A stretch of DNA of 64,000 nt from Natronorubrum tibetense GA33 (GTDB lineage Archaea > Halobacteriota > Halobacteria > Halobacteriales > Natrialbaceae), in contig NZ_KB913018.1 in the NCBI RefSeq assembly GCF_000383975.1, forward strand, positions 124,001 to 188,000. Reading direction: 5' to 3'. Made by a program: the position numbers and the translations under genes. Shown here piece by piece: positions 1,737-22,165 of this stretch. The stretch's first letter is position 1; each line of letters opens with the position of its first letter. The notes below the pieces were generated by a model. The model made no database searches, had not been told where the DNA came from, and worked only from the letters and a program-made list of their open reading frames with translations.

Positions 1737-3116
1737 CTATGAGTCAGTGACATCACTCAAGTTGAATAATTGGAGATCGTCACGCTCGGACACGGTTTCC
1801 TGTACAGATTGGGTCGCGCCACTCCGTGTGAACAACGCGTATTCCGTGTCAACTCCGCCGGAGTCCGGCGTCCAGCGAATCTCCGACGCGTGGTCTTCAA
1901 GTGAGGACAGCGCACGGTAATCCAGTGGCGAGTTCGTGAACTTGCACTCTCCCACGACCATTGTTCCGTCTGTGGTGAACCCGACAACATCCACTTCATG
2001 TTCCTTGTACCACCAGCGGCCGATATCGAGGAACAGCTTCTCTGAATACAGACGTGGGAGGGCATCCTGGCAAAGCGTTTCGAACTCTTGACTGACGAAA
2101 TCATGGAGTTCTGGTTCGATAACTGCTTCGTAGGCACCCTCACCTAGACGGTCGTATCGATCTTCTTTGCCGTAGACGAAACGGAACCAGAAGCGAAAAA
2201 GTGGATCCAGGAGTCGGTAGCGTCCGCGGCGTGACTTCGCTTTCTCCTCGGTGATCGGAACTTCTCGTTCAATGAGCCGCAACCGCTCTAACTTCTGAGT
2301 ATAGGTCGAGATTTGCTTCCCGTCGATTCCAACCGTTTGGGCGATTTCGTTCGATGTTGTCTTCCCCGCAGCTAGTGCGGTGAGAATCGCGAAGTACCGA
2401 TTCGGGTCTGTGAGTTCGGTCCGGAGGACGTATTCTGGTTCGTTGTGAAGATATCCTTTCTGAGAGAGCACCTCCTTCGTGAGGACTGTTCCAAGATCCT
2501 GATTGAGATCGATACCGTCGAGATAGTATGGTACACCGCCAAAAATTCCCCACGTGAAAACACGCTCTTCGGGGGAGTAATCGTCCGGGACAAACGCTTG
2601 TGCAGCGGCGAAGTCGAGCGGTCGGAGATCAAGTTTCTCGGTGAAGCGCCCGTACAGAGGACTGTTCCCAAGAAGCGTCGCTTCTTCCATCATGCTGATC
2701 GATGAGCCAACCAGAATGAGTGTTCCCGCTGTATTTTGGAACCGCTGGTCCCATAATCGCTGAATGACCGAGGGAAGGCTCTCGTCAGCGTCGATCAGAT
2801 AGGGAAATTCGTCGAGGACGACAATCCCGTCTTGATCGCCGAGATACCCCAGGAGCGCTTCCCAGTTCTGCTTGATATCCGTGATTCCTGGAAACGTGTC
2901 GGCAGCGACGTCGACGAACTCGTCGAGTTGTATCTGTGACGTGGTTTCTGTAGCCTGGTAGACGACGGCATCATCGCGCTCGGCAAGCGAGTGCTGGACG
3001 AGTTGTGTTTTCCCAAGGCGCCGCCGGCCGAAGATGACGACCATCTCAGCGTCGTCGGAATCGTAGCACCTGCGGAGCCGTGAGAGCTCATCTTCCCGGT
3101 TGACGAAGCGCTCCAT
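1737..3116 (-). CDS. Archaeal AAA-type ATPase with C-terminal DUF234 nuclease-like domain
   Basis: This 459-residue protein has a Walker A motif GRRRLGKT at residues 30-37, Walker B (VVLDEF) near residues 99-104 and a sensor strand LILVGSS near 133-139. A winged-helix segment follows (TSNEIAQTVGIDGKQISTY). The C-terminal domain carries EVDVV (374-378) and GECKF (389-393), a PD-(D/E)XK-type signature as known for DUF234. The family (Arch_ATPase plus DUF234) is widespread in archaea, often in mobile or defence-rich DNA; its biological role is not established. The gene is alone on its strand, with no operon partner visible. Confidence 0.88.
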   Translation of the reverse strand: MERFVNREDELSRLRRCYDSDDAEMVVIFGRRRLGKTQLVQHSLAERDDAVVYQATETTSQIQLDEFVDVAADTFPGITDIKQNWEALLGYLGDQDGIVVLDEFPYLIDADESLPSVIQRLWDQRFQNTAGTLILVGSSISMMEEATLLGNSPLYGRFTEKLDLRPLDFAAAQAFVPDDYSPEERVFTWGIFGGVPYYLDGIDLNQDLGTVLTKEVLSQKGYLHNEPEYVLRTELTDPNRYFAILTALAAGKTTSNEIAQTVGIDGKQISTYTQKLERLRLIEREVPITEEKAKSRRGRYRLLDPLFRFWFRFVYGKEDRYDRLGEGAYEAVIEPELHDFVSQEFETLCQDALPRLYSEKLFLDIGRWWYKEHEVDVVGFTTDGTMVVGECKFTNSPLDYRALSSLEDHASEIRWTPDSGGVDTEYALFTRSGATQSVQETVSERDDLQLFNLSDVTDS

Positions 3117-3484: not shown

Positions 3485-3850
3485 TCAATACGTTTCTACG
3501 TCGATTGCGTCGACGCGTTCGAACTCGTCGACGTTTCGGGTGAGGACAGTCGCGTCCGAACGGGTTGCAGCGGTCCCCGCAATCAGAACGTCGATTGCAC
3601 CGATCGGTTCGCCACGGTCGAGAAGGTCGTGTTGGATGTCGAGCGCACGCTGTGCGGCTCGAGAATCAAACGGAACTTCATCAATCTGGTCGGTCACACG
3701 GTCAAACGTCGGCTTGTGCCGTTGGCTGTCGCCTCGGAGTCCGACGCCGACCTCGAAGACCGTGAGTGACGAAATTGCGACTGGATCTTCCCCGTCGACT
3801 AGTGCCTCAAGCTTGTCGACGGCGTCGGAGTCGCTACGAACGAGGTCATT
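3485..3850 (-). pseudogene. vapC: VapC-type PIN domain, 3' part, separated from its start by a TnpB element
   Basis: The frame NDLVRSDSDAVDKLEALVDG...SLTVFEVGVGL...GAIDVLIAGTAA is a PIN domain missing its first strand and first Asp. The missing start is found 1.4 kb away at 5282-5259, beyond an IS200/IS605-type element: MLLDSTFV joins directly to NDLVRSDSDAV. The second and third acidic residues (Glu in VFEV, Asp in AIDVL) are present. The present frame could start from a TTG inside the element but would lack the first catalytic Asp. Confidence 0.85.
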
Positions 3851-3980
3851 CAACTGATACGGTAGCGCGGAGTCCCCTTCCTTAAGGAACGAGCAAAGCG
3901 AGTGAGTAGGGAGGGGAGGAGTGCGTTCGTATAAATCACAAACACTAATCTTTAACTAGCCACACGATCACATTGAAACT

Positions 3981-5237
3981 GTGGCAGACGGCTATGTGCG
4001 TCGGACGGCAATCACTCGTCTCGAAGTCACTGACGAGCAACGCGACCTTCTCGAAGATACCATCTCCGAGTGGAAGCGTGGTTGCCAAATCGCCACTGAC
4101 ATGGCGTGGAAAAAATGCAACGCTAAAAGCGACGTGCAACCCCTCGCCTACGCTGACGTACGCGAACAAACCGACCTCGGTAGTCAGCACGCGATTCTCG
4201 CCACCCACCAAGCGGCCCAAGCTATCACCGGCTGTATCGAACGCCGGTCCAAAGGCAAGAAGGTAAGCAAGCCAACTTTCACTGCACCCACAGTGAAGTA
4301 CGATACCCGGACCATGACGTTGTTCGAGGACGATACCGTGTCGCTCTCCACAACGGAGAGCAGAGTCCGATGTCAGCTTGCTCTCCCCGACGCCGACGAT
4401 GGCTACCAACGGCAGTATCTCAATTCAGACACATGGAGCATCACGGAAAGTACGCTCACCGCCCGTGCCGGCGACTACTTCTTGCATATCGGCTTCCGCC
4501 GACACAAGAACGATGCTGAGAGGAACACCGCCGAGGACGGAACGGTCCTCGGGGTTGACCTTGGTATCGAAAACCTCGCTGTCACCAGCACCGCCTACTT
4601 CTTCAGCGGACGGGAGCTAACCCATAACCTCCGTGAGTTTGAGAAAGTGCGTGGTGGACTCCAACAGACCGGAACGCGAAGCGCCCACCGGACGCTCGAA
4701 CAATCGAGTGGCCGGGAACTCCGGTACGTCCGGGACGTGCTACACCGGGCGTCGAATGCAATTGTGGACGAAGCACTTCGGTATGAGTGCGACGTGATCG
4801 CATTCGAGGACCTGACAGACATCCGTGATCGCATAGGCGCATCGTGGGGACACAAATGGGCGTTCAGAACGCTGTACGAACAGGTGGAGTACAAGGCCAA
4901 AGCGATGGGCGTTTTGGTGAAGCAAGTTGGTTCAGCCTACACATCGAAACGGTGCGCCGAGTGTGGGTTCACGGCAGACGAGAATCGTCCGGCACGCAAT
5001 GACTTCCACTGTGTGAAGTGCGAGTCGGGGGCGAACGCAGATTACAACGCAGCGAAGAACATCGGAATGCGGTATGTCCGTCGAGGCCAACAGTCGTCTC
5101 GGCGGACGGGCAACAGTCAGCTTGCCCTGAAGTCTGGAACGGTGACGCCAAGTGGCGGATTCACCGCCCACCCGGAAGGGTCTGAGGCCGAGTTCATGGA
5201 CAAACCCCACCCTCCACGAGCGAACCCGTCAGGGTGA
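3981..5237 (+). CDS. tnpB: TnpB, RNA-guided nuclease of an IS1341-type element
   Basis: This 418-residue protein starts at GTG 3981. The RuvC-like catalytic residues are all present: Asp193 in VLGVDLGIENLAV, Glu276 in VIAFEDL and Asp354 in ANADYNAAKNIG. The target nucleic-acid-binding zinc ribbon is CAECG/CVKCE (Cys325, 328, 344, 347). TnpB proteins are known to be omega-RNA-guided DNA nucleases related to Cas12. The final 40 or so codons overlap the predicted omega RNA and right end, which explains the Pro/Gly-rich C terminus. The protein looks catalytically intact. Confidence 0.92.
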   Translation: MADGYVRRTAITRLEVTDEQRDLLEDTISEWKRGCQIATDMAWKKCNAKSDVQPLAYADVREQTDLGSQHAILATHQAAQAITGCIERRSKGKKVSKPTFTAPTVKYDTRTMTLFEDDTVSLSTTESRVRCQLALPDADDGYQRQYLNSDTWSITESTLTARAGDYFLHIGFRRHKNDAERNTAEDGTVLGVDLGIENLAVTSTAYFFSGRELTHNLREFEKVRGGLQQTGTRSAHRTLEQSSGRELRYVRDVLHRASNAIVDEALRYECDVIAFEDLTDIRDRIGASWGHKWAFRTLYEQVEYKAKAMGVLVKQVGSAYTSKRCAECGFTADENRPARNDFHCVKCESGANADYNAAKNIGMRYVRRGQQSSRRTGNSQLALKSGTVTPSGGFTAHPEGSEAEFMDKPHPPRANPSG

Positions 5238-5258
5238 GCGAAGTAGGGTGGAGTAGTT
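5100..5258 (+). ncRNA. Predicted omega RNA (reRNA) scaffold overlapping the tnpB 3' end
   Basis: In characterised TnpB elements the guide RNA is made from the 3' end of tnpB through the right end, and the guide is the flanking DNA immediately beyond. Here the right-end stem (5207-5213 with 5245-5251) and an inner hairpin (5224-5227 with 5232-5235) fit that layout. The guide would then be the vapC start region beginning at 5259. The 5' limit is arbitrary. The call is by analogy; no transcript can be seen from sequence. Confidence 0.5.
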
Positions 5259-5282
5259 GACAAATGTCGAATCGAGAAGCAT
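5259..5282 (-). pseudogene. vapC: 5' end of the interrupted vapC (first eight codons)
   Basis: The ATG at 5282-5280 lies six bases after the stop of the antitoxin gene and encodes MLLDSTFV, the first strand and first Asp of a PIN domain. The TnpB element follows directly. Joined to the fragment at 3850-3485 it gives a normal PIN toxin of about 130 residues. Confidence 0.82.
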
Positions 5283-5288
5283 CCGTCG

Positions 5289-5660
5289 TTACGCCCCGCT
5301 CGTGTTCGATGCGTCCATTTCCTGATTGAACGACTCACGCCACTCCTGCGAGCGCTCACGGGCGGCTGCCGCCTCGTCCTCGTCGAGCATCCCGACGAGG
5401 TCACGCAACGGCTCGGCGGGCGCAGAACTCTCGTCGCCCTGATCAGTAGCTGCCCACCACACTTTCGCCTTCGCACCGACATCCATGCTCTCGAGGCGGC
5501 CCTCTTCGCGAAGGGCTTTCAGGCGGGTGAGGGCGGTTCGACGGCTGATCGGTAGCTGTTCTGCGACGCCACTGGTCGTAAGAACGGGCGTCTCTGCAGT
5601 ATCGAACACTGCCACGATCTCGTCATCGTCGACGCGTGGCTTCCTACCAAATTGTGACAT
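5289..5660 (-). CDS. Winged-helix antitoxin/repressor of the interrupted vapC
   Basis: This 123-residue protein has an N-terminal winged-helix fold (DDEIVAVFDTAETPVLTTSG, then VAEQLPISRRTALTRLKALR and a GRLES wing). It ends in an acidic helical tail (LVGMLDEDEAAAARERSQEW) of the sort that wraps a toxin. It ends seven bases before the vapC start, so the pair formed a two-gene toxin-antitoxin operon before insertion. A GAATATTC box about 30 bases upstream of the ATG could be its TATA element. The antitoxin role is inferred from position and layout. Confidence 0.7.
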   Translation of the reverse strand: MSQFGRKPRVDDDEIVAVFDTAETPVLTTSGVAEQLPISRRTALTRLKALREEGRLESMDVGAKAKVWWAATDQGDESSAPAEPLRDLVGMLDEDEAAAARERSQEWRESFNQEMDASNTSGA

Positions 5661-6021
5661 AGATAGGAGTTCGGGCCGTAGGATGTTGAATATTCCCGCT
5701 AAAGGAAGTAATAGTCAGATACGGGCGTTTCATACGCTGAAGATAGTAGATATATATTTCGTATCGTGAGAACCCTGCCTTCACGATTCTATCCACACAA
5801 CAGTAGGGAGTCCCAGCCCTATAGGGCGGGCGTGAATCTGTGGACACCCGTCGTCGTCGGACACAGCTGCAACTCCGTCCTCTGACTACACTGTCGAGAG
5901 ACTGTTCGAGAGGTGTACCAAAAGCTATCCACTCCACCAACCAACCGCTTCGCGTCCATTCTCAGGTATTGCTGTGAGAGCTATGGCCTCTCTCGAGGGA
6001 TCTGTTAGGGGCTGTCCATGG
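5661..6021. other. Intergenic region with an orphan right-end-like hairpin
   Basis: No gene is supportable here. The first 35 bases hold the antitoxin promoter. At about 5800-5845 a segment with GCCCT-ATA-GGGC in a GTAGGGAGTCCCA context resembles the right-end hairpin of haloarchaeal IS1341-type elements, but no tnpB is attached. The rest is featureless to my reading. Confidence 0.3.
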
Positions 6022-6900
6022 TTAGCCGAGGACGCCAGCTGTCTCCGGAGTGTCCGCTGCAGTCGATGTTTCACCCGGAATCTCAGCATCCACAGGGAGG
6101 ATCAACCGGCGCTCTGTATACTCAAGGCCATTCTTGCGCTCGTTTTGTTTCCGGATCGCAACTCGGTGTTTGGAGAGATCGAGCATGGCATCGATCGTCC
6201 GCGAGACGAGTTTCTTTGCGTAGGTCTCACTCGTCCCGGGCTCTTGGCGACGGATCCAGTGTTTCAGATCGCTCGCTTTGATGTAGTCCTTGATCCCCTT
6301 GCCGCCCGTCTCCCACGGATTATCTCCGATGCTCGAGTCAGTTCGTGCTTTCCAGAGCGTTGCAGCCAACCGAGTTGGCAGTGCGTTGGTCGTCGACTGC
6401 AACATATCGTCATCCATCCGTGCGAGTTGCTGGATCGGCAGGAGATCACCATACGCCAGCGAAACGGTACCGTTATCGAGTGGATCTGCACTCTCGGGAA
6501 GTCGGAAGTACGTCTGTCCATCGTCTTTCGTGAATTTCTCGAGGTGATCACCTGAGACCTCGATTTCGTGTTCGTCAACGGTCTCCGTCTGGAGATGGGC
6601 GCCCTTCTCGAGTTCGCGTGACTGGAGCTCCTCGATTCGGTCTTTGTTCGTACCGGCTTTGTTCAACGCTGCGTCGACGGCCTTCTCACAGCGCGTGCGT
6701 TCGCGTTCACACTCCTCGAGTTTCTCTCTGAGCGTGGTCGTTGTCTCTTCGAGTCGGTCACGGTCGCGCTCGAGATCGTCGATACGGTCATCTTTGGCAT
6801 CGAGTTCCGTCTCGAGGTGGTCGATACGGTCGCGAAGGCAGGCGAGTTCGTCAGCGAACTGTTCGTGTGTCGGTGTGGTGTCTGTGTTCTCAGTGGTCAT
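6022..6900 (-). CDS. Coiled-coil protein of unknown function (last gene of accessory operon)
   Basis: This 292-residue protein has three parts. Residues 1-15 are Thr-rich. Residues 15-100 form a long charged coiled coil (DRIDHLETELDAKDDRIDDL and onward). The C-terminal part of about 180 residues includes SLAYGDLLPIQQLARMDDDM and a basic helical region (YAKKLVSRTIDAML). The C-terminal layout could bind DNA, but no named domain is recognised. It is the last of a series of same-strand genes starting at 10113, after a 197-base gap, so it may have its own promoter. Homologous arrangements occur on haloarchaeal plasmids and integrated elements (general knowledge, not checked here). Confidence 0.7.
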   Translation of the reverse strand: MTTENTDTTPTHEQFADELACLRDRIDHLETELDAKDDRIDDLERDRDRLEETTTTLREKLEECERERTRCEKAVDAALNKAGTNKDRIEELQSRELEKGAHLQTETVDEHEIEVSGDHLEKFTKDDGQTYFRLPESADPLDNGTVSLAYGDLLPIQQLARMDDDMLQSTTNALPTRLAATLWKARTDSSIGDNPWETGGKGIKDYIKASDLKHWIRRQEPGTSETYAKKLVSRTIDAMLDLSKHRVAIRKQNERKNGLEYTERRLILPVDAEIPGETSTAADTPETAGVLG

Positions 6901-7097
6901 CGGATTGGAATGGGAGTGCTGGTGCTCAGTGAATCGATCAACGGGCGTACAACGGCGGTTATAGACGGGGTCGTGGCCTCGAAAGCGGGCCCTTCAGCGA
7001 TTACAGGACAACACGTCTGTCTGAACCCCTAGCTCTCGCTGGAAGCGGGGCGGACCAGCTACGGCCGTGTTGTGGTTACCGTCTCAGAACAGCCGAC

Positions 7098-7709
7098 TTA
7101 TTCATCCCCTCCATCGACAGGCCCGTCTTCAGCCTCGTCCTCGATTGGCTGATACCGATGCATTCGATCCTTAGGCTCGAAGCCCGGAACATAGCTGAAA
7201 GGGTTCTCGGTGTTGAAGTGGAACATCAATGGAAGTGTGCCACGACCTTCCCGCGCGGTGTGTTGTGCTGGGTAGTCGAAGAGATCGTGTGTTGGCGCGC
7301 TAACGCTTGGTGCTGGAAGCGCACCACGGTGAAGATCCGAGAGGGTGAGAACCCTGACTTCCCAGTTCCGAGCGATACGGCGAGCCTCTTCAGTCAGGGT
7401 TGTCGTATGACACAGAACGGGCATCGCACGACAGGTGAACGCGAGCATACACAGTCTGTAGACGACATCTGCCGTGACGGGACGACTCTCCCAGTCTTTG
7501 CATTCGGCAAGCAGCCAATCAGACGGCTTTCGGGGCTTCTTGTTTCGTCTGGCGACGACGTCAACCTCGAGATTGTAGACCGTCTCGCGCATTTCTGCAC
7601 GGTAGCCCCACCGCTGGAAGGCACGCTGGAGTTGATACTCGAGCCAGCGTCCATCACCATTCCCGCGGCCTTCGATCTCCTCGCGGGGGAACTTCTCTTT
7701 GTTAGTCAT
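7098..7709 (-). CDS. Mrr-like restriction-endonuclease-fold protein
   Basis: From the ATG at 7709 the protein is 203 residues. The nuclease core is visible: Glu24 in RWLEYQLQRAFQRWGY, Asp50 in YNLEVDVVARR and the E-x-K pair in LLAECKDWE (Glu69, Lys71), followed by ADVVYRLCMLAFTC. This is the PD-(D/E)XK pattern of Mrr/RecB-like enzymes. The C-terminal 90 residues are less ordered. The start overlaps the preceding gene by eight bases; an ATG at 7721 is also possible. It is the only gene of this operon with a recognisable catalytic domain, and the call of nuclease is by motif only. Confidence 0.72.
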   Translation of the reverse strand: MTNKEKFPREEIEGRGNGDGRWLEYQLQRAFQRWGYRAEMRETVYNLEVDVVARRNKKPRKPSDWLLAECKDWESRPVTADVVYRLCMLAFTCRAMPVLCHTTTLTEEARRIARNWEVRVLTLSDLHRGALPAPSVSAPTHDLFDYPAQHTAREGRGTLPLMFHFNTENPFSYVPGFEPKDRMHRYQPIEDEAEDGPVDGGDE

Positions 7710-8247
7710 CGGACTCACCATCCTCGGGGTCGGTAGCCATCGCGTGCAGTTGGATGGTAGCGTCTGCGAGGGCGATCCGTTCGGTTCCGTCCGTCGTTGG
7801 CGTCTCTTTCTCGAGCGTCTTCGAGTCGGGACCCACTGTTAGTTCGAGACGGTGGGTCTCGTTGGCCGTCGTTTCGTACTCGAGACAGCAGTTGTATGTG
7901 GCTCCATTGGGGTCGTTTACCGCGGACAGATCCGGGATTCGTGTCTTGAGTTGGCCTGTCTCTGGTGCCGTCGTTGTTGTGTTGTACGGTTCGGAGATGT
8001 CGTACAGTGCCGTGAGATCGTTGAGCCGTCTGTTGAGCTGGTGCAGTTGGTGGCGCGCCTCCCGAATGTCGCTTTCGTCCGGGCGGTGGTCATCTATCAG
8101 CGCGGCTCTGATCGATGTTGCAGTCCTGATAAAGCGGGCAAGCTCACTGTGCTCGGTTGTGGTGTGATGCGTCTCGAACGCTTTACTCAGGTGGCTTCGA
8201 GCGATCGAGTCGGCGACGTCGGGATCAGTGGTGGTGTCTTCAGTCAT
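7702..8247 (-). CDS. Uncharacterised acidic protein of the accessory operon
   Basis: This 181-residue protein has a helical N-terminal half (ARSHLSKAFETHHTTTEHSE; EARHQLHQLNRRLNDLTALY) and a beta-rich C-terminal half (YNCCLEYETTANETHRLELT). There is no signal peptide or membrane segment. It overlaps the upstream gene by four bases (ATGA) and the downstream nuclease gene by eight, so it is translationally coupled to both. I do not recognise a family. Confidence 0.65.
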   Translation of the reverse strand: MTEDTTTDPDVADSIARSHLSKAFETHHTTTEHSELARFIRTATSIRAALIDDHRPDESDIREARHQLHQLNRRLNDLTALYDISEPYNTTTTAPETGQLKTRIPDLSAVNDPNGATYNCCLEYETTANETHRLELTVGPDSKTLEKETPTTDGTERIALADATIQLHAMATDPEDGESDD

Positions 8248-9233
8248 TGGTTTTCAACGGTTTTAGCAGTCGATAGGCTACACTCGGCTGGCGGCTGGTC
8301 GGGGTATTCGTCAAGGGTTTGCTGGATCTCTTCGAGAGATATGAACACAGTGGGGCCAAGGGGAGTGGATCTGAGTCGCTCTCTCGCAAACGTGTTGTCG
8401 GCCTCGATGCGGTTGCGAACTTCCTCGAGTTGCGTCTCAAGCCACTCGATAGCATCCGTATAGCTTGTCCACGAGTACGTGTCCGCGTCGTCGGCTTCAA
8501 GCGGATGCTCCGATGGAGCAGGCTCGAACAGTGCTTGGTGGATATCCAGAAGCTGTGATTGGAGTGCGAACAGTTTTCGCTCGATTCGCGTGGACGTGCG
8601 AGTGTCGAGGCGAGTATCAGCGTAGACCGCCTCTGAGAGTTCTCGGACGGTGACGATGACCGTCTCGAGGATAGTGTATTGTTGTTGTTCGGGGGTGTAC
8701 TCGTCGACCCGTCGGTCGTCAATGAGTTCGTATTTGCGTCTTGGACCGCCCAACGGCCGTATTACGAGCGTTGTTTCGTGCCAGTTAGACGGCAAGACCG
8801 CGTCGAGTTCTGCAAAGAGTCTAGCATCGTACCGCTCGAGTGGTGGCTCTGCGATGTGACACAGTTCCTGCCTCTTGCCGCTGCTGACCAGTAGTTGGCC
8901 CGTATAGCCGACGAGATACGAGGGGACGTCGATACCGGCATTGGTGACTCGCAGTGGTTCGGTCGGTCGGTTGTTGTATGTGATCGAGTTCAGCGCCCCG
9001 AGACGGGTTGGTCCGGTCGCTGTGATCTCCGAGACGGTGGTCTCGTCAGCTGTCGGGCTAAGCAGGAGGGTCCGATCGTCCGTTTCGATATGCCGAAACA
9101 TGGTCGTTGGATCATAGTTGCAGATCGTCCCCTGCTCATAGACGGTCTCGTCTGCATTTTTCCAGCTCACATAGACCTCCGTATCTGGAACCAGTGCTCG
9201 GAGTTGCGTTCTGAGTGTGTGTTGGTCACTCAT
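8244..9233 (-). CDS. Uncharacterised 329-residue protein of the accessory operon
   Basis: The ATG at 9233 is preferred over a GTG at 9242. The N-terminal 110 residues are beta-rich (TEVYVSWKNADETVYEQGTI) and are followed by a segment TTLVIRPLGGPRRKYELIDD. A helical region with long amphipathic stretches comes next (TILETVIVTVRELSEAVYAD; IERKLFALQSQLLDIHQALF). The GPRRK turn after a beta strand recurs in the next gene upstream (9226-9681), suggesting related domains. No enzyme motif is visible. The gene overlaps its neighbours at both ends. Confidence 0.65.
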   Translation of the reverse strand: MSDQHTLRTQLRALVPDTEVYVSWKNADETVYEQGTICNYDPTTMFRHIETDDRTLLLSPTADETTVSEITATGPTRLGALNSITYNNRPTEPLRVTNAGIDVPSYLVGYTGQLLVSSGKRQELCHIAEPPLERYDARLFAELDAVLPSNWHETTLVIRPLGGPRRKYELIDDRRVDEYTPEQQQYTILETVIVTVRELSEAVYADTRLDTRTSTRIERKLFALQSQLLDIHQALFEPAPSEHPLEADDADTYSWTSYTDAIEWLETQLEEVRNRIEADNTFARERLRSTPLGPTVFISLEEIQQTLDEYPDQPPAECSLSTAKTVENQ

Positions 9234-9681
9234 CGAGGCCACCCTGCTCGAGTTGGTTGCGGCTGTATGGGGTGTCGGCGAGTGATGTGACCGCTGGAAC
9301 TCCGTGTTTGCGGATGAGTCGTTGGAGTGTGGCGTCGTCGATCGACTTCCAGTGGGTGGATCGTTGGCTATAGTATCGGAGTGTCGTGTTTTTAGCTGCG
9401 ATGACGATCGGCTGTTCAGTGTTGAACTGGAGTACTTCTGGGTTCTCGGTTTGCCACGTGTGGTGGATTCTGGAACAGAGGGTTTCTATTGTCGGCGGGG
9501 TTGGATTCGTGTTTGGGAGGTTGGTGTGGACGGTCGGGTCCTCGATCTGTTCGTATCCCGTTTCGCGCCACTGCTGGCCGTCCCAGACGGTTTCGATGCG
9601 GACCCAGCTGTCGTCGGTTTGTTTGATCGTGAGTTTTCGGCGCGGGCCGTTTGTCGGTGACCACTGGAGGGTAACGGTCAT
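9226..9681 (-). CDS. Uncharacterised 151-residue protein of the accessory operon
   Basis: The protein begins MTVTLQWSPTNGPRRKLTIK, a beta-strand and GPRRK turn shared with the adjacent 329-residue protein. It then reads WVRIETVWDGQQWRETGYEQ and ends in an Arg/Leu-rich helix (DDATLQRLIRKHGVPAV). No catalytic residues stand out. It overlaps the 34-codon gene upstream by four bases and the downstream start by eight. Function unknown. Confidence 0.65.
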   Translation of the reverse strand: MTVTLQWSPTNGPRRKLTIKQTDDSWVRIETVWDGQQWRETGYEQIEDPTVHTNLPNTNPTPPTIETLCSRIHHTWQTENPEVLQFNTEQPIVIAAKNTTLRYYSQRSTHWKSIDDATLQRLIRKHGVPAVTSLADTPYSRNQLEQGGLDE

Positions 9682-9782
9682 TCGAGGGTTTCCTCCAGTT
9701 TGCAGTAGGCGTGCTCGAGGTCGCCTGGGGTGATTGGGCGCTCGAGGGTGATGGTAACTGTGAGGTGGTCACTATCGGACAT
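9678..9782 (-). CDS. Very small conserved-looking protein (34 residues) of the accessory operon
   Basis: ATG at 9782 and TGA at 9678 enclose 34 codons reading MSDSDHLTVTITLERPITPG and onward to LEETLE: one amphipathic beta strand and one helix. The start lies inside the end of the gene before it (11-base overlap) and the stop overlaps the next start by four bases (ATGA). The operon spacing therefore argues that it is translated. Function unknown; it could fold onto a partner protein. Confidence 0.5.
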   Translation of the reverse strand: MSDSDHLTVTITLERPITPGDLEHAYCKLEETLE

Positions 9783-10113
9783 CAGCAGTCACCTCGTCTG
9801 AGTACTTCTCCAGAGGGAGTGGGCGCTTCGTTCTGTTTTTGGCCGAATATGCGGGCCACTGATTGACGTTGCGGTTGTCGGTTTCCTCGAGTGCTTCGGT
9901 GTGGACGATCTTAGCCGGCCGTGAGACTAGTCCTGAATTCTCGGGGAGTAATTGCTCGACACAGCTCTGTGTTACGTGATTAATGACCTCGGGGGCATGA
10001 TGGTGGAAGCCTTCTTGTCCACAGTAGCTGTGGGACCTTCCCAAACGCTCGAGTATGATGTTAGCTTGCTGTACATCCGAAATCGTTTCGTGTGTGGTAG
10101 TCGTAGATGACAT
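9772..10113 (-). CDS. First gene of the accessory operon, unknown function
   Basis: This 113-residue protein has a Thr-rich start (MSSTTTTHETISDVQQANI), a His/Cys-containing stretch (HSYCGQEGFHHHAPEVINH) and a basic C-terminal half (AYSAKNRTKRPLPLEKYSDE). The HSYC...HHH cluster might bind metal. No family is recognised. It opens a series of overlapping genes down to 7098 and is divergent from the winged-helix gene at 10283. Confidence 0.55.
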   Translation of the reverse strand: MSSTTTTHETISDVQQANIILERLGRSHSYCGQEGFHHHAPEVINHVTQSCVEQLLPENSGLVSRPAKIVHTEALEETDNRNVNQWPAYSAKNRTKRPLPLEKYSDEVTADVR

Positions 10114-10135
10114 CGCCTTCTCATCAAGGCATGGT

Positions 10136-10157
10136 CGGCGGCGGTGGTGCGCCGCCG
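10136..10157 (-). repeat. Perfect GC-rich hairpin in the operon leader
   Basis: CGGCGGCG-GTGGTG-CGCCGCCG forms an eight-base-pair stem with a six-base loop. It lies 23-44 bases before the first start codon of the operon, in the transcribed leader if the TATA-like sequence at 10190-10205 is used. It could act on translation or termination. Confidence 0.5.
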
Positions 10158-10190
10158 GCTCAGAGGTTTCGTCTGGCCGTGTCCCGTGCC

Positions 10191-10236
10191 TTAGTATATT
10201 TTAGTATCTTGTCCCACATAGTTCTTACGGAGTAAG
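10191..10236. promoter_or_regulatory. Divergent control region: tandem TTAGTAT repeats and a CTTAC palindrome
   Basis: TTAGTAT occurs at 10191-10197 and again at 10201-10207, exactly one helical turn apart. On the minus strand the same DNA gives a TATA-like AAATATACTAA for the leftward operon. At 10224-10236, CTTAC-GGA-GTAAG is a perfect inverted repeat between the two divergent genes. These look like binding sites for the winged-helix protein encoded next door. That link is inference. Confidence 0.5.
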
Positions 10237-10282
10237 TTTACAGGAAGTCCGGTGTAGCCGTTAAACGATTACGCTGATAGTC

Positions 10283-10522
10283 ATGGCAACATCAGTATTG
10301 AATATGGTTGAGCTGGACGACCGTGATCAAGCCGTACTCAAAGTGATGGCTGACGGTCGAGCGAATCCATATCTGATCCGAGAGGAAACAGAATTGGAGA
10401 AGGGAGACGTGAATACAGTACTTGTTAGACTGGCCCGATTGGGGTACGTCGAGCAAGTAACCCGTGGTCTATATGAAATTACTGACAAAGGTAGTAACGC
10501 TATGGGTGAAATTGATGAGTGA
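10283..10522 (+). CDS. Small winged-helix regulator (PhiH1-repressor-like)
   Basis: This 79-residue protein is essentially one winged helix: LDDRDQAVLKVMADGRANPY, LIREETELEKGDVNTVLVRL as the recognition region, then a wing (GYVEQVTRGLYEITDKGSNA). This is the fold of the halophage PhiH1 repressor and related haloarchaeal regulators. It is divergent from the seven-gene operon and separated from it by a palindrome, so it probably controls that operon and itself. Confidence 0.75.
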   Translation: MATSVLNMVELDDRDQAVLKVMADGRANPYLIREETELEKGDVNTVLVRLARLGYVEQVTRGLYEITDKGSNAMGEIDE

Positions 10523-10889
10523 ATAGAATCACACCTATCACTACTAGTGGAGATGCAAACAACATTAGTGAAAATCTCACAAGGAGTCTGCTTGACACTA
10601 CAATGCTCCTTGAATCCTCAAGTTATGGGCTATTCTGTCTCTAAATATTCGTCTGCATGGTGACCCCGCGTTCTTGGGAAGTTCAATTACGGGGACCACT
10701 CGTAAGTTCATGATATCGTCTGTCTATGGCTTGAACGACAGTCAATTTGCACACCCTCGAGGCCGGTGTGTTCTTCGAGCAGGCTATCTCGAGTGTTTTT
10801 GCTCTGTGTGACGGGCAAGGGGTTTTGTCACCCCACACTCTTTCAGTCAGTAACGGTGGTCCAGAGCCGTGTCGAGAACACGTGAATGA
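10523..10889. other. Gene-free region, moderately AT-rich
   Basis: I see no gene with haloarchaeal codon use here. The stretch separates the accessory operon region from the MFS pseudogene and could contain the border of an integrated element, but no repeat or att-like duplication was found by eye. Confidence 0.3.
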
Positions 10890-12067
10890 TCAATACCCAA
10901 GTCCGAAAATGCGATTAACCATGACGAGGGCAAACGAGGCGGCGAACAACACGGCGAGGATCCACAGCGTCTGGGACCAGCCAAGAGCGTCCGCGAACGC
11001 ACCGACACCGATGGAGCCGGTCGACCCGACGACAATATATACCGTGCGAAAGACGCCAAAGCCAGCGTTGCGTTCAGCTTCGGACAGTCCGTCGAGGACT
11101 TTGGGCTCGAGGGCGGCGAAGAAGCTTGTCGCGGTCCCGAACAGGATGGTCGCTAGGATGATCATCGGCAGACCGGGATCGACGAGGAACACGAGCATCG
11201 ACGCGATCCCAAGCAGCAGACAACCGGCAACGACGGTATCCCGATTGAATCGGTCCGAGAGCTCTCCGACACCGATCTGGGCGCCGCCGCGAACGACGAA
11301 GTACGCCGAGAAGACGACGCCGGCCAGGGTGGGCGTATAGTCGTGGAACTCGACTAGAAACGTCGGGAGGAACGAGATCAGGCCGTTGATCCCGAACATC
11401 GCGAGGATCGCGACGATGGTCGCGTACGCGATCGGTGGGCGGGCAAGCAAGGACAGGAATGCTTCGTCAGTTCCACGGTCGTCCGCTTGCTCTTCAGACT
11501 CGTCTTGTTGGGGCTCGGTCGGCTCGACGCGCCACAGGAACAGGATGAAGACCGGGACCGCACAGAGGACGACCAGTGCGATGGCGGGCCGCCAGCCGTA
11601 CCGCGCGCCGATCCAAGCGGCGGCGATCGGCGCGAGCAAGCCAGCGGCCGGCGACCCGAGCGAATGGATGCCGATCGCTCGGCCGATGTCGTCGTACGTC
11701 TTTGAGAGCAACGTCGACGCGACGGTGTAGTGGAGGCCGGCGGCCGCGCCCATACCGACGACGCCCAGGAAAAAAGAGCGAAGACGGGGGCGATGGCGGC
11801 GAGGGCACTCAGGACGCCGGTCCCGCCGACGGAGAGCAAAATAACGCGTTTCTCGCCGAACTTATCGGCGAGGACGCCACTGGGATACTGCGAGAGCCCG
11901 TAGGCGATCCACATCCCCGACAGGGCGAATCCGATCTGGGTGTTCGAGACGGCGAAGTCGTCCGTGATAAACGGGACGACCGGGCTGATCGCGACCCGCG
12001 CGAAGTACGTGACGAAGAACGCCAGCGTACAGAGGAGGAGGACGGTGTCGCGATACTGCCAGTTCAT
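10890..12067 (-). pseudogene. MFS transporter with a single-base frameshift
   Basis: The N-terminal frame from ATG 12067 (MNWQYRDTVLLLCTLAFFVT; GLSQYPSGVLADKFGEKRVI) and the C-terminal frame ending at 10890 (YDDIGRAIGIHSLGSPAAGL; FGVFRTVYIVVG) together make a 12-helix major facilitator protein. They are joined at a run of six A (plus strand 11770-11775). Adding one base restores ALFFLGVVGMGAAAGLHYT and gives 392 residues, the normal family length. The loop DRF-x-R motif (GELSDRFNRD) is present. It is either a recent pseudogene or a homopolymer sequencing error. Substrate unknown. Confidence 0.85.
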
Positions 12068-14673: not shown

Positions 14674-15678
14674 CTACACGATCTCAAGCGATTGTTCGAT
14701 TCGCTCCCGTGACCGCTGGTTTCGGAGCTTCGTGTGGGAGCCGATTACGCTACCGTCGAGATCGATCCCCTCGACGACACTTGCCCCGTCAAGGATGCTG
14801 TTCTGGACGGACGCGTCCGTGATAGTCGTCTCCGGAAAGACGACGGCCCGCTCAAGCTCCGCATCGACGACTTCCGCGCCACCCATCACGTGGACATTCT
14901 CCCCGATCTGACTGTTCTCGATTCGTGCAGTGGAAGCAATCGAAGAGTCACCCTCGAGGTAGTGGCAGACTGCGTCGAGGTACGACCCCGGCGTCCCGAT
15001 GTCGAACCACGCACCATCGAATGAAAAGGCGTACACCGATTCGCGATCCTGGAGCCACTGGAGGAACCAGCCGGGTTCGTCCGGGTTATTGCCGTTCTCG
15101 AGGTACGTCTCGAGGAGCTCGAGTGCCTCGGCGGGGAAGCCGTAGCAGGCAATCGAGATCAGCGAACTCTGCGGGTTGTCGGGTTTCTCCTCGAAGTCGA
15201 CGACACGGCCGTGTTCAACGTCGACGACTCCGTACTGAGTGGCGTTCTCCGGCGTGCCGACATCGTAGGCGGCGATTGTTGGCGTACCGTGAGACTCGAA
15301 GTGGTCGATGAAATCGCCGACGTCGAAACTGATGTAGTTGTCACCCGCAATGACCAGCGTGTCCTCGGAGAGTTCCTCGCGCTCGACCAGTTGTGCGAGC
15401 GCACCGACAACGCCGAGTTTCTCGTTTTCGTGAGTTGTCTCTTCGACTGAGAGCGTAGGCTTTTCGTATGGGCAATCGGCCAGGTGGGAGTTGAACTCCT
15501 CTGCGAAAGCCGCGTTCGTCGAGACGTAGACGTCCTGTATTCGGACATCTGCCTCGAGTTCCTCGAAGATCCGGTCGATCACCGTGGTGTCGCCGATCGG
15601 GAGAAACATCTTCGGCCGGCGTTTCGTGATCGGCCAGAGTCGCGTCGCGTACCCCCCTGCGAGGACGATGGCGTCCAT
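14674..15678 (-). CDS. Sugar-1-phosphate nucleotidyltransferase (NDP-sugar synthase)
   Basis: This 334-residue protein has the nucleotide-binding signature LAGGYATRLWPIT with RRPKMFLPIG near the N terminus, the metal-binding aspartate in VIAGDNYISF and the sugar-binding segment FEEKPDNPQS. The C-terminal quarter is a left-handed beta-helix-like stretch (IENSQIGENVHVMGGAEVVD). It would join a sugar-1-phosphate to a nucleotide for glycan synthesis. A TTTATTTG box (plus strand 15700-15710 region) sits about 27 bases before the ATG. The exact sugar cannot be told. Confidence 0.85.
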   Translation of the reverse strand: MDAIVLAGGYATRLWPITKRRPKMFLPIGDTTVIDRIFEELEADVRIQDVYVSTNAAFAEEFNSHLADCPYEKPTLSVEETTHENEKLGVVGALAQLVEREELSEDTLVIAGDNYISFDVGDFIDHFESHGTPTIAAYDVGTPENATQYGVVDVEHGRVVDFEEKPDNPQSSLISIACYGFPAEALELLETYLENGNNPDEPGWFLQWLQDRESVYAFSFDGAWFDIGTPGSYLDAVCHYLEGDSSIASTARIENSQIGENVHVMGGAEVVDAELERAVVFPETTITDASVQNSILDGASVVEGIDLDGSVIGSHTKLRNQRSRERIEQSLEIV

Positions 15679-15824
15679 GGTCTGGATATGTTATTACCCT
15701 CAAATAAACCTTCTTGAAAGTCGATTGGCCGAGGTCCAAGGAACACTGGAAAAACGGTACTGTCTAATCAGCGCGGGTTAAGAAACGGGCCGGTTGCAGA
15801 GACCGTTTGGCTATGCCGCTCACT

Positions 15825-16262
15825 CAGGTTGTACGGCCACGGATTCGACCCACCATGGTGATCTCGAACTTCGTCTCACAGGATCTGAATGGCAAGCCAC
15901 CGGAGATCTGCCGCTCGGGCGAGCAGATCCGCGGTTTCACCTACGTCAACGACGCGGTCCCGGTGAACCGGACGCTGATGAGAATGGGGACAGGCGAAGA
16001 GGAGGTGATGAACGTCGACTCGACGGGGACCAGTGATATCCGGACTCTCACAGAGGAGATCCGAGAGGCGATCGATCCCGAACTGGAGATCGAGTACACC
16101 GAGGCGCGAACCGGCGACGCCAAGGCGGCCCAAGCCGACGCCTCAAGGGCCACCGAGCTGGTCTGCTACGAGCCACGACGATCCAGGAGGGGGATCGAGC
16201 GGTTCATCGAATGGTACGAGGCGAACCGAGAGTGGTACGAACCGCTGGTGTTGCGGTCGTGA
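15825..16262 (+). pseudogene. C-terminal remnant of an NAD-dependent sugar epimerase
   Basis: The frame reads GPRIRP-like RPRIRPTMVISNFVSQ, RGFTYVNDAV, TLTEEIREAIDPELEIEYTE and ends FIEWYEANREWYEPLV. This is the C-terminal half of the epimerase found intact at 36355-37341 (FIDWYRENQEWYDPLVRNS). The Rossmann half with GGAGFIG and the YxxxK pair is absent. With the dehydrogenase remnant at 14.2 kb it indicates that an older nucleotide-sugar operon has decayed here. Confidence 0.8.
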
Positions 16263-16424
16263 GTGGGTCGGGGGACGTCGTTCGGTTCTTGTCATCGTGA
16301 TAGATAACGACCGCGTCTGGTATACGGAAACCGCGGTGAACATTCTGCATAGACCGCGGGACGTGCCTGTATGTCGAAGCAATTATCCCGTTCGGTTGCA
16401 CACATTAGTTCGATTGCCAACCAT

Positions 16425-18224
16425 ATGTCATCGGATGCTACCGAAGAGGTTTCTCGCCGCGAAAAAATCGACGCGCTCCTTGACGTCGCCCGGTTCGATC
16501 CCAAGTTCTCGGTCATAATCGTCGCACTCGGACTGCTGGCTGCGGTACTGGAGGGGGTCGGGCTGAGCTTCATTATGCCGATTATCGAGATCGTTCAACT
16601 TGACGACCCCGTCGCGGAGGCCGACGGCATGATGGCGTATTTCGTGCTGGCCTATCAGACGCTCGGGATTCCGTTCACGCTCGGGTACGTGGTCGTGGGG
16701 GTTGCAACGGTGATGACGGTTCGATACACTACGAGCTTTTTCGTCGCGTGGTTCCGGGCCGCGCTGACAAACTACTACATCCAGAATCTACAGAATCGGG
16801 CATACGGGAAGGCACTAGACGCCCGTGTTGGGTATTTCGACGAGGAGGGATCGGACGACATTCTGAACGCGATTATCACGGAAACCAAATACGGAGCGCG
16901 GGTGATCAAAAATTCCGTGCGGTTCCTCGAGAAGCTGTTCTTGTCGGCGGTGTACATGTTGATCGCACTTATCATCTCGCCGCTGTTGACCGCGATCGCG
17001 ATCGGTATTCTGGGATTCTTGACGGTGTTTCTCCGGCGAGTTATTGAACCGGGATACGAACTCGGTGACATCGTCGCGGATGCTAACGAACGGCGACACG
17101 GGGCAGCACAGGCAGGGACACAGGGGATCCGTGAAGTCAGGATCTACAACCTCGCTCAGGAAATGTACGCGGACTTCACCAATGCGGTGGGTCGCTACAC
17201 CACAAACAAAATCAAGCTCAGGCGGAATGAGGCCGCGCTGAAGAACTTCTACAACCTCGGCGTCGCGGTGTCAGTATTCGTGTTGATCTTCTTCGCACTC
17301 ACGCTGGCGAATCTATCAGTCGGGGCACTGGGTGTGTTCCTGTTCGCGATGTACCAGCTCGGTCCGAAAGTGAGTGCGCTGAACGAGATTTTTTACAAAA
17401 TCGAAAACGAGCTCGCTCATCTGGTCCGGACCCAAAGATTCATTCAGGAACTGGAGCGGCTGGAAGAGTCGAACGAGGCGACGAGAAAAGTCCCAAGCGA
17501 GATCCGTCACGTCGAATTCGACGACGTCCAGTTCTCCTACAACGAGGACGAGCAGGTGTTGAAGGGAGTCGACTTCGAGGTTGAGAAGGGAGAGTTCGTC
17601 GCGTTCGTCGGGCAGTCAGGAGCCGGCAAATCGACGATCGTCTCGCTGTTGGCCAGGTTGTATCCGATCGACCGGGGTGAGATTCGAGGGAATCAGATTC
17701 CGGTCTCGGAGATGGATATTGAGGAATGGCGCGATCGGATCGCAGTCGTACGGCAGAATCCCTTTATTTTCAACGATACGTTGCGGTACAACCTGACGGT
17801 CGGGAACCGGGACGCCACGCGGGCCGAGATCGATCGGGCGTGTCAGATCGCGAAAGTTGACGAATTTATCGACGAGTTGCCAAAGGGCTACGACACGCAA
17901 CTCGGCGATGAGGGCGTTCGACTGTCCGGCGGGCAGAAACAACGAGTGTCTCTGGCGCGGGCGCTGTTGACGGATGCGGATCTATTGGTGCTGGATGAGG
18001 CAACGAGCGACCTGGATTCACATCTGGAACAGGAGGTCCAGCAGGCGATTGAAGCGATGGATCGGGATTACGCGATGATTGCTATTGCGCACCGGTTGTC
18101 AACGGTGGAGAACGCCGATCGGATCTATACGATGGACGAGGGTGAGATTACGGAGGTTGGCTCACACGAGGAACTTATTGACAATGGGGAGCAGTATGCG
18201 AACCTGTATGCAATTCAATCGTAA
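16425..18224 (+). CDS. ABC exporter (half transporter), probable glycan or lipid-linked saccharide flippase
   Basis: From ATG 16425 the protein has 599 residues (an ATG at 16371 would add 18). The first 330 residues hold the transmembrane domain with about six hydrophobic segments. The nucleotide-binding domain follows with Walker A GQSGAGKST (396-404), signature LSGGQ (about 501-505) and Walker B LLVLDEA (about 520-526). Fused TM-NBD halves of this kind include MsbA and the lipid-linked oligosaccharide flippase PglK. The neighbouring pyruvyl transferase and glycosyltransferases make glycan export the likely job. GC content falls sharply right after this gene. Confidence 0.85.
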   Translation: MSSDATEEVSRREKIDALLDVARFDPKFSVIIVALGLLAAVLEGVGLSFIMPIIEIVQLDDPVAEADGMMAYFVLAYQTLGIPFTLGYVVVGVATVMTVRYTTSFFVAWFRAALTNYYIQNLQNRAYGKALDARVGYFDEEGSDDILNAIITETKYGARVIKNSVRFLEKLFLSAVYMLIALIISPLLTAIAIGILGFLTVFLRRVIEPGYELGDIVADANERRHGAAQAGTQGIREVRIYNLAQEMYADFTNAVGRYTTNKIKLRRNEAALKNFYNLGVAVSVFVLIFFALTLANLSVGALGVFLFAMYQLGPKVSALNEIFYKIENELAHLVRTQRFIQELERLEESNEATRKVPSEIRHVEFDDVQFSYNEDEQVLKGVDFEVEKGEFVAFVGQSGAGKSTIVSLLARLYPIDRGEIRGNQIPVSEMDIEEWRDRIAVVRQNPFIFNDTLRYNLTVGNRDATRAEIDRACQIAKVDEFIDELPKGYDTQLGDEGVRLSGGQKQRVSLARALLTDADLLVLDEATSDLDSHLEQEVQQAIEAMDRDYAMIAIAHRLSTVENADRIYTMDEGEITEVGSHEELIDNGEQYANLYAIQS

Positions 18225-18366
18225 TGTGTGTGATATTTGGTGTCAACTATGGAATTAACAAAGCGATCTTCAGGGGAGGAGGTAATGGCAAGACAACAAG
18301 AGTCTGGGCGAAGGGCACCGAATAAGATTAATTTATGTAGCTCTGCTTCAAAAGTGAATAATAGAG

Positions 18367-19407
18367 ATGAAAGATAATATAATTTCTTATCATGGCTGGG
18401 TTGGACATAACAATTTGGGAGATGAAGCAATTTATCGCGCGTGTGAGAAATTATTCCCAAATTACGTTCTCGTCCCAGAGAATCACATTGAAAGAGAAGT
18501 CTCATTAGAACTCTTTGGCGGGGGGACAATATGGCCACCGAAGGAACTCGACTTTGCTGAAGTACCCTCCGCTGGTGTGGGTGTGGGTGTGAAACAACCT
18601 AGTTTCTACAATCGCAAACGTTCTACTCTTGATTTCGGTTACTACCTTGGGAAATCTGGCCTCGCAAGGGTGACTAAAGATACGATCGGTAAGAGAGGCC
18701 GTTATATATTACCCGACGATTTTAAAAAATTAAGGAGTGTGGGCCAAATAGGAGTTAGAGGCCCCTTATCGCACAAGTTACTTCAAGATTATAACATAGA
18801 ATCACAAATAACAGGCGATACTGCGTTAATACTCGAACCAAGTGAATATGAACTGATGAATAACAAAAAGATTGCGGTGACACTCCGTGACGGTGGAAAA
18901 AAATGGGGAGGGTCTAACGAATATATAGACTCGGTCAAAGAAATCTGTAAGTCAAGGTCTGATCAGTACACCTTTGTATTCATTCCACTCAAGCCCGATG
19001 ATATACCTCTCCATATTGCACTGGCGCGAGACATACCTAACGCAAAGTTCAAAAACTACTGTACGGTTCCAGACGTTAGTGGAGTTATTGATGAATACGC
19101 AACCTGTGAACTGGTGATTGCGGAACGACTACACGGTAGTATTCTTGGGGCCTGTTCATACACTCCGTTCATATCAATCGGTTATCGAGGAAAGAACGAA
19201 GACTTTGCTCAATCAATTGATATGGGTGAGTTCAATGTTCGAATTGATCGTGTTACCACCAGACAATTACAGGAGCTTTTTGATATGGCCTCTTCGGATG
19301 ACCTCCAGTCCAAGTTGAAGTCAGAAGTCGACAAAAAAAGAAACACACTTCGTAATTTCACTCGAAAAATAATTAGCCAAATGTCTTGTATGGAATCTCC
19401 CCGATGA
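18367..19407 (+). CDS. Polysaccharide pyruvyl transferase family protein
   Basis: This 346-residue protein starts ISYHGWVGHNNLGDEAIYRA, the GNxGDEA nucleotide-sugar-type motif of the family. It has ELFGGGTIWPP (the GGG loop) and ends with ELVIAERLHGSILGACSYTP, the conserved RLHG motif. These enzymes add a pyruvate ketal to sugars of exopolysaccharides; in archaea they act in glycan or S-layer decoration. Base composition and Lys/Asn/Ile-rich codon use differ strongly from flanking genes, a sign of transfer. Confidence 0.88.
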   Translation: MKDNIISYHGWVGHNNLGDEAIYRACEKLFPNYVLVPENHIEREVSLELFGGGTIWPPKELDFAEVPSAGVGVGVKQPSFYNRKRSTLDFGYYLGKSGLARVTKDTIGKRGRYILPDDFKKLRSVGQIGVRGPLSHKLLQDYNIESQITGDTALILEPSEYELMNNKKIAVTLRDGGKKWGGSNEYIDSVKEICKSRSDQYTFVFIPLKPDDIPLHIALARDIPNAKFKNYCTVPDVSGVIDEYATCELVIAERLHGSILGACSYTPFISIGYRGKNEDFAQSIDMGEFNVRIDRVTTRQLQELFDMASSDDLQSKLKSEVDKKRNTLRNFTRKIISQMSCMESPR

Positions 19408-19871
19408 ACCTTGGATTGATGGGATACAGATTTAGCCGAATGAAATAAGTAATTATAGTGGGTTTCTTCCTGAAGTAGATTGTTAGTTGGGGGAACTATC
19501 GCGATGAATGAGCCGTGAGAAAGAATAAATTGAACGTTTAACCCGATTTGTTCCAATTTGAATTGCTAAGCGCCTCCTCCGCGACTCAATCGAGATCAAG
19601 GCCGTCGTAAGTCTTGGTGTCGACGTTGAAGTAGTCCTCTACTGCATCACGTACCTAGTAATCTAAGTAAAGTTAGCACCCCTACAGGGGATAGATGCGG
19701 TAACATACTTGACTAAAGCTACGCTGTGAGATCAACAAGTGCTGTACAAGATTATGTGTGAAATTGTTCTGATGTGTATGACCCATACGATCAAGCGAAC
19801 CGTCAACTGATCAATTCCACCGTAGTGTAGCGATTCAGCACGCCCATCTACATAGACTAATTATATCAGAG
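19408..19871. other. AT-rich intergenic region with one protein-like remnant
   Basis: No gene is supported. On the minus strand 19586-19650 reads VRDAVEDYFNVDTKTYDGLD then LD and a stop, which looks like the end of a lost haloarchaeal gene embedded in AT-rich sequence. I cannot name it. Confidence 0.3.
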
Positions 19872-21736: not shown

Positions 21737-21839
21737 TATTCCTTTTTAAGTGAGTCCAACTATATAAGCGTAAGGATGTCTAGGTCAGAAAATCGAATTG
21801 TGGAATGTGGCGAAGGTTTGACCCCGCAATCTAGATTTC

Positions 21840-22165
21840 CAGAATCTATGGTGGAAGAACCAGTAGTAAAAGAGGCTGGTTCAGTATTTGTGAAGGGGAA
21901 CCGGGCTTCGACGAGCGACCGTTCGTCTCACGTTTCACAGCGTGACTTGCACAGTTCAAGTTCGTCAAGCGTCCAGTTGTAACAAAGTCACAATCTACAA
22001 GAACGATAGGTTCACCGCGACACCGCTTCAGCACTTCCTTTGCGAACAGCATCGCGTTGAGGTCTGATCGGTCGGGAGAGAGCTCATGTGGACAACTTCG
22101 AGCGTCTCCAAATCAGCTGCGGTCTAGATGTAAACTTCGGTCTCTCGCTCTTCAACTTGGTGGAG
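21840..22165 (-). pseudogene. Decayed DDE transposase of IS6 type
   Basis: Pieces in different minus-strand frames line up with a haloarchaeal DDE transposase: TAADLETLEVVH after a stop codon, then DLNAMLFAKEVLKRCRGEPI with VLVD (second catalytic Asp), then, after further shifts, SLVEARF (the Glu region). There are several stops and frameshifts, and no terminal repeats were found. It marks an old insertion at the edge of the AT-rich island. Confidence 0.65.

Follow-up and report, generated by a model that had tools for sequence, protein, structure and literature searches.

A haloarchaeal nuclease operon related to HRAMP loci and headed by a structured leader RNA

Gene order and genomic context of the operon

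The window, the 64,000-nt stretch of DNA analyzed here, is part of a 257.5-kb haloarchaeal contig. Six genes on its minus strand form a chain in which each overlaps the next, by 11, 4, 8, 4, and 8 nt in order. They encode a 113-aa adapter (gene A, 10113-9772), a 34-aa microprotein (gene B, 9782-9678), a 151-aa protein (gene C, or Cx, 9681-9226), a 329-aa protein (9233-8244) to which domain profiles and a structure model assign two beta-barrel domains, S and S2, and a helical domain, H, a 181-aa protein (8247-7702) with a divergent H domain (profile E value, 1.2e-6), and a 203-aa PD-(D/E)xK (Mrr-like) nuclease (7709-7098). A 197-nt gap separates this chain from gene D (6900-6022, same strand), which encodes a coiled-coil protein of 292 aa whose C-terminal domain is conserved. 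The divergent gene on the plus strand (10283-10522) lies 169 nt from gene A, and a structured leader RNA (10111-10193, minus strand) occupies the spacer. Its 79-aa winged-helix (wHTH) product, which has weak MarR/TrmB/HTH matches and matches a PHROG transcriptional regulator (2.9e-8), is probably the regulator of the operon, and most sister operons also have a divergent wHTH gene beside them. All open reading frames of the initial annotation are present with ATG starts, and its overlapping chain, divergent winged-helix gene, and downstream coiled-coil gene are confirmed; its label of a seven-gene operon is valid if gene D is cotranscribed. The leader RNA and the link to HRAMP loci are additional to it.

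Pfam, NCBIfam, PHROGs, and PADLOC searches with the window proteins returned wHTH matches and coiled-coil noise only; no PADLOC profile matched the nuclease, C, or the 329-aa protein, and D gave coiled-coil noise. Gene order is kept in relatives, as in L016 (a divergent wHTH gene, then B-C-H-S/S2-S/S2/H-nuclease-D) and also in L019 and L015. The homologs occur as conserved operons and not as scattered, independent genes. Phage records and viral contigs contained no homologs of the operon proteins, and apart from coiled-coil noise and the PHROG regulator match of the wHTH protein, no phage or viral family was matched. The initial annotation had named co-occurrence of all seven genes as support for a functional unit. 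We found two conserved units, one of C and the nuclease and one of the wHTH gene, adapters, and coiled-coil gene, the latter also nuclease-free in many genomes. The window operon is a standard A-B-C-D unit with the block 329-181-nuclease placed between C and D.

All genome counts given here come from even draws from the class. Gene D is present in 72 of 234 genomes, and at most D loci one or more adapter genes (H; A-B-C; AbrB-like; C; or F50) stand between a divergent wHTH gene and D. Operons with D are commoner without a nuclease than with one, and for this reason we rejected D as part of the nuclease unit. Since these more numerous nuclease-free D operons have aglB glycosylation genes or arrays of toxin-antitoxin modules as neighbors, the original role may be regulation. 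The chromosomal A-B-C-D operons of L113, L126, and L016 adjoin a hypervariable surface-glycosylation region with genes for aglB-like oligosaccharyltransferases and for glycosyltransferases. Arrays of toxin-antitoxin-like pairs (AbrB/PIN, DUF433/PIN-like, and wHTH pairs, judged by eye) lie between gene D fragments in L115, L116, L117, and L125, a pattern suggestive of cassette insertion at D through recombination. The window itself carries a DUF234-like ATPase (1737-3116), a PIN-domain toxin (3485-3853), and TnpB (3981-5237) downstream of D; L083 and L103 likewise have relatives of the ATPase and TnpB close to D. Elsewhere in the window, a gene for a sugar nucleotidyltransferase (14674-15678) precedes AT-rich DNA (GC, 0.39-0.43 at 18-22 kb), and this region (14674-22000) is probably a surface-glycan island.

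The nuclease position is taken in sister operons by HNH, TnpB/Cas12f-like, RecB-like PD-(D/E)xK, and, weakly, HEPN proteins. Compact TnpB/Cas12f-like proteins (224-289 aa) occur between leader and D (L158, L160, and L163) or just upstream of cas7 (L213, L224, and L227), and those of L158 and L163 appear by eye to have intact RuvC-type acidic residues. At L014:11920-13865, a 234-aa HEPN-like protein (RLRNNIAH) stands in for the PD-(D/E)xK nuclease after an S+S2-type protein.

Several nuclease loci are in defense islands with Type IIG restriction-modification, tmn, HerA with a Rad50-like protein, or McrB-like AAA genes. An undescribed defense-type module, as initially proposed, is therefore the best-supported reading, given the conserved operons and these islands, although the conserved unit does not comprise all seven genes. 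Many homologs are plasmid-borne, in some cases close to orc1/cdc6, integrases, or MCM, which would suit a module for replication, recombination, or maintenance of plasmids in which the nuclease is resolvase-like. We consider this very unlikely: homologs also lie on large chromosomal contigs, the nuclease type is exchangeable, the neighbors are defense genes and toxin-antitoxin modules, and nothing here beyond the plasmid location of some relatives favors replication or maintenance.

The nuclease, its adapters, and HRAMP loci

An alignment of 26 nuclease sequences shows D50 and K71 to be invariant and E24 and (E/Q)69-x-K71 to be kept. The annotated motif, D50 and E69-x-K71, is thereby upheld, with E or Q at position 69 and E24 in addition. 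Alignment, AlphaFold, and Foldseek together indicate a restriction-endonuclease-like fold that carries the catalytic D and (E/Q)xK, as in Mrr-like PD-(D/E)xK enzymes, and Foldseek matched the domain model to AF1548 (2.4e-4), MspJI, Cdn1, Can2, and AspBHI. Searching PDB sequences with the nuclease profile yielded only coiled-coil noise, which came from the H region. The nuclease family is present in 28 of 234 genomes, homologs of the 329-aa protein in 8 of 242, and full-length homologs of the 151-aa protein in about 20. Plasmid pHLAC01 encodes a 329-type protein and the nuclease as one 498-aa chain, a fusion indicating that the two act together. A minimal operon common on plasmids (e.g., pNRC100) consists of a DUF7344 wHTH gene, a 233-aa H+C protein, and a 348-aa H+nuclease protein, with a MarR-like wHTH gene in most.

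The small proteins are modular. Gene A has homologs in 12 loci, mostly as the first gene of A-B-C-D operons, and A-type genes also come after leader RNAs; we rejected A as a decayed F50, the profile score of 3.8 bits being too weak, and treat it as a separate family. In L016 and L019, the gene at the position of B encodes a PadR-like wHTH protein whose C terminus B matches; B also matches small proteins in L113, L125, and L126. These matches indicate that the 34-aa reading frame is real. The N-domain of C stands alone as a 70- to 80-aa protein in sister operons, and full-length C accompanies the nuclease; the structure model of a C relative (pLDDT, 82) had no confident fold match in a structure search. 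The 181-aa protein has homologs at 13 places; three of these, distant homologs in three genomes, follow a leader RNA at a distance of 168-358 nt, and one of the three belongs to an HRAMP locus. For S and S2, the Foldseek resemblance to PilZ barrels was too weak to use.

HRAMP is an array-less, type III-derived system associated with HNH or PD-(D/E)xK nucleases (PMC8730458 and PMC12669027). Every protein of the minus-strand operon has homologs in HRAMP loci or in operons with a divergent wHTH gene, one or more small adapter genes, and a coiled-coil gene. The initial view that the nuclease alone had a recognizable active site was too low an estimate of modular proteins shared with HRAMP loci. 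The window nuclease family itself is found in the HRAMP loci L019, L103, L122, and L123, and the operons run C-H-S-cas7-F31-cas5-nuclease-D in L019 and F50-F31-cas5-DnaQ-S-C-nuclease-D in L103. In L015, which belongs to the window's genus, a C-terminal cas7 remnant directly precedes C. PADLOC identifies the Cas7-like protein of relatives as Csm3-like (2.7e-6) and the Cas5-like protein as Cmr3-like (5.6e-7). At 5 of 40 places, the nuclease and cas7 are no more than 10 kb apart, versus 0.1 expected.

The CAS7, F55/Cas5, and F31 profiles matched none of the operon proteins, and the only Cas7-like match in the genome is on C1. We found no array-like direct repeats at 5000-11500, so the operon is array-less like HRAMP. 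Because the RAMP genes are absent, we regard it as related to HRAMP and not as a member. The host chromosome has an HRAMP locus of its own (L121:5209-11293), which encodes an HNH protein, F50, and a DnaQ-like exonuclease and has a leader RNA of the same kind (1.6e-16); this locus adjoins genes for a SNF2 helicase and a DUF1156-like methylase.

With regard to function, the strongest rival is a modification-dependent (type IV-like) restriction enzyme, in which S/S2 or C would read a modified base, the Mrr-like nuclease would cut, and the leader would only tune dosage against self-damage. Such an enzyme would fit the proximity of the nuclease to MspJI, AspBHI, and AF1548 in fold comparisons, an operon without a methyltransferase, and the position of L103 beside a McrB-like AAA gene and of L013 and L083 beside Type IIG enzymes. 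Profile and fold searches found no known base-reading domain in C, S, or S2, however, and the RAMP proteins inserted in relatives would be superfluous for such an enzyme. We think this explanation unlikely.

Structure and distribution of the leader RNA

In the window leader, stem P1 (AAGGCA..TGCCTT) encloses P2 and P3 (CGGCGGCGcaccacCGCCGCCG) in a three-way junction, and an alternative hairpin, P4 (GCCTTgatgagAAGGC), stops 1 nt before the ATG. P4 reuses the 3' strand of P1, so that the junction and P4 are mutually exclusive. The two folds are similar in energy (-33.7 kcal/mol for the junction versus -31.9 kcal/mol with P4 forced, a difference of 1.8), and such a leader may respond to a ligand in the manner of a riboswitch. 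Its MFE z score is about -3.5. Spacers between the wHTH gene and the first operon gene have a common architecture (P1-P3, with P4 up to the start codon), not a common sequence, and mean MFE z scores are -3.4 for A-B-C-type leaders and -2.8 for H-type leaders, compared with -0.15 for regions upstream of other genes. The window leader has the characters of HRAMP leaders: the P1-P3 junction and a P4 that overlaps P1 and abuts the first start codon.

Compensatory changes support both folds. Among 25 HRAMP-only leaders, we counted 63 double changes versus 22 in shuffles, with none of 500 shuffles reaching 63, and the covariation score was 0.345 versus 0.203. In the same 25 leaders, P4 has 6 double changes versus 2.3 in shuffles (0/500), and a second HRAMP leader group has 18 versus 6.8. 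MAFFT alignments blurred the stems, and arms were also compared sequence to sequence. Since several stem arms were delimited by hand, we used an objective detector and covariance-model controls.

The detector, with spacers widened so that H-type leaders were included, found a leader before nearly all HRAMP operons and in 26 of 26 A-B-C and H leaders. Its 95th percentile on 250 control gene starts was 53, and the top control matches were family members left in the set. About 42 of 45 distinct HRAMP loci have a leader, 39 by the detector plus L129, L181, and L182 by covariance model. Covariance models R1 and R2 were built from HRAMP leaders only, and R3 was built from A-B-C leaders with the window left out; all of their E values come from a shortened calibration. 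R1 recovers leaders at D loci, at L103 (2e-8), and at L015 (1e-5), and R2 recovers those of L013 (5e-10) and L098 (1.7e-15) as well as A-B-C leaders. The best match in the 64-kb window is 10203-10111 with R2 (E, 0.017), ending at the first ATG, and 10187-10111 with R3 (E, 0.016), so that the window leader reaches an E value of only about 0.017 with each model. R2 matches occur in 96 of 234 genomes and 42 of 72 genera, and the true distribution is probably wider because R1 and R2 cover leader subtypes only. Rfam gave no match for the leader, which is a widespread candidate RNA family in haloarchaea. R1 and R2 gave no leader match at the minimal plasmid nuclease operons. A stretch upstream of plasmid nuclease operons (L102:7986-8461 and equivalents) is conserved across species without a leader-model match; its reading frames are nonacidic and overlap on both strands, suggesting that it is noncoding. 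The upstream frames F4 and F6 are likewise nonacidic and probably not genes.

The most interesting rival takes the RNA as a component of the encoded complex, a scaffold or guide that would be the missing RNA of array-less HRAMP and not just a cis switch. A leader stands at nearly every HRAMP locus checked, the HRAMP proteins are homologs of Cas5 and Cas7, a CRISPR RNA-binding family, and TnpB/Cas12f-like proteins in sister operons adjoin the leader, D, or cas7. Yet the 3' end of the leader always abuts the start codon, the two exclusive folds are as in cis regulators, no variable guide-like stretch was recognized in the leader, and the leader also heads operons without any RAMP. We consider an RNA partner distinctly unlikely and give the same low credence to its broader form, in which HRAMP and the wider nuclease operons would use the bistable leader as scaffold or guide for an array-free, RNA-dependent defense with swappable Mrr, HNH, TnpB-like, RecB-like, and HEPN effectors.

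Proposed function and comparison with known systems

The leader held in common suggests one RNA-controlled, probably defensive system across HRAMP and nuclease operons. Our favored reading, which we hold to be moderately likely, is that the window operon represents the nuclease branch within a haloarchaeal operon family to which HRAMP also belongs, and that it acts as an RNA-switch-controlled module against mobile elements. The parts of such an operon would be a divergent wHTH gene, a bistable leader RNA, small adapters (A, B, C, S, and H domains or zinc-binding F50), and an exchangeable nuclease, in many cases with coiled-coil protein D. The leader would toggle between the three-way junction, with the start codon free, and the hairpin that reaches the start codon. 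An invasion signal, either a ligand or the dissociation of an operon protein from its own leader, could then turn translation on. Adapters and D might form a complex on DNA or RNA and recruit the PD-(D/E)xK nuclease, which would be tethered via its own H domain or an H-domain partner and would cut the invading DNA.

To our knowledge, HRAMP poses a puzzle, combining CRISPR-type RNA-binding proteins and active nucleases with the lack of both an array and a known RNA. The finding that a conserved structured RNA directly precedes almost all HRAMP loci examined, and also occurs in RAMP-free nuclease operons, makes this question of an HRAMP RNA testable. Our results also define a nuclease operon family that is absent from PADLOC-DB 2.0.0.

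Compared with HRAMP, the window operon has the same kind of leader RNA, the same nuclease family, and the adapters C, S, and H seen in L019 and L103, and it is likewise array-less; it differs in having A/B/C, S-S2-H, and D instead of Cas7-like, Cas5-like, and F31 genes. The catalytic core and predicted fold of its nuclease resemble those of Mrr-like PD-(D/E)xK restriction nucleases (AF1548, MspJI, and AspBHI), but the window protein is a bare nuclease domain, and in relatives this domain is linked to an H or S-S2-H region, not to wHTH or SRA. The CRISPR ancillary nucleases Can2 and Cdn1 have a similar PD-(D/E)xK domain fold, whereas the window operon has no recognized CARF domain and no Cas10 gene. 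Like translational riboswitches and autogenous leaders, the window leader combines a conserved aptamer-like junction with an exclusive hairpin at the start codon; in contrast to them, leaders of this type lie outside Rfam and head nuclease and HRAMP operons, not metabolic genes.
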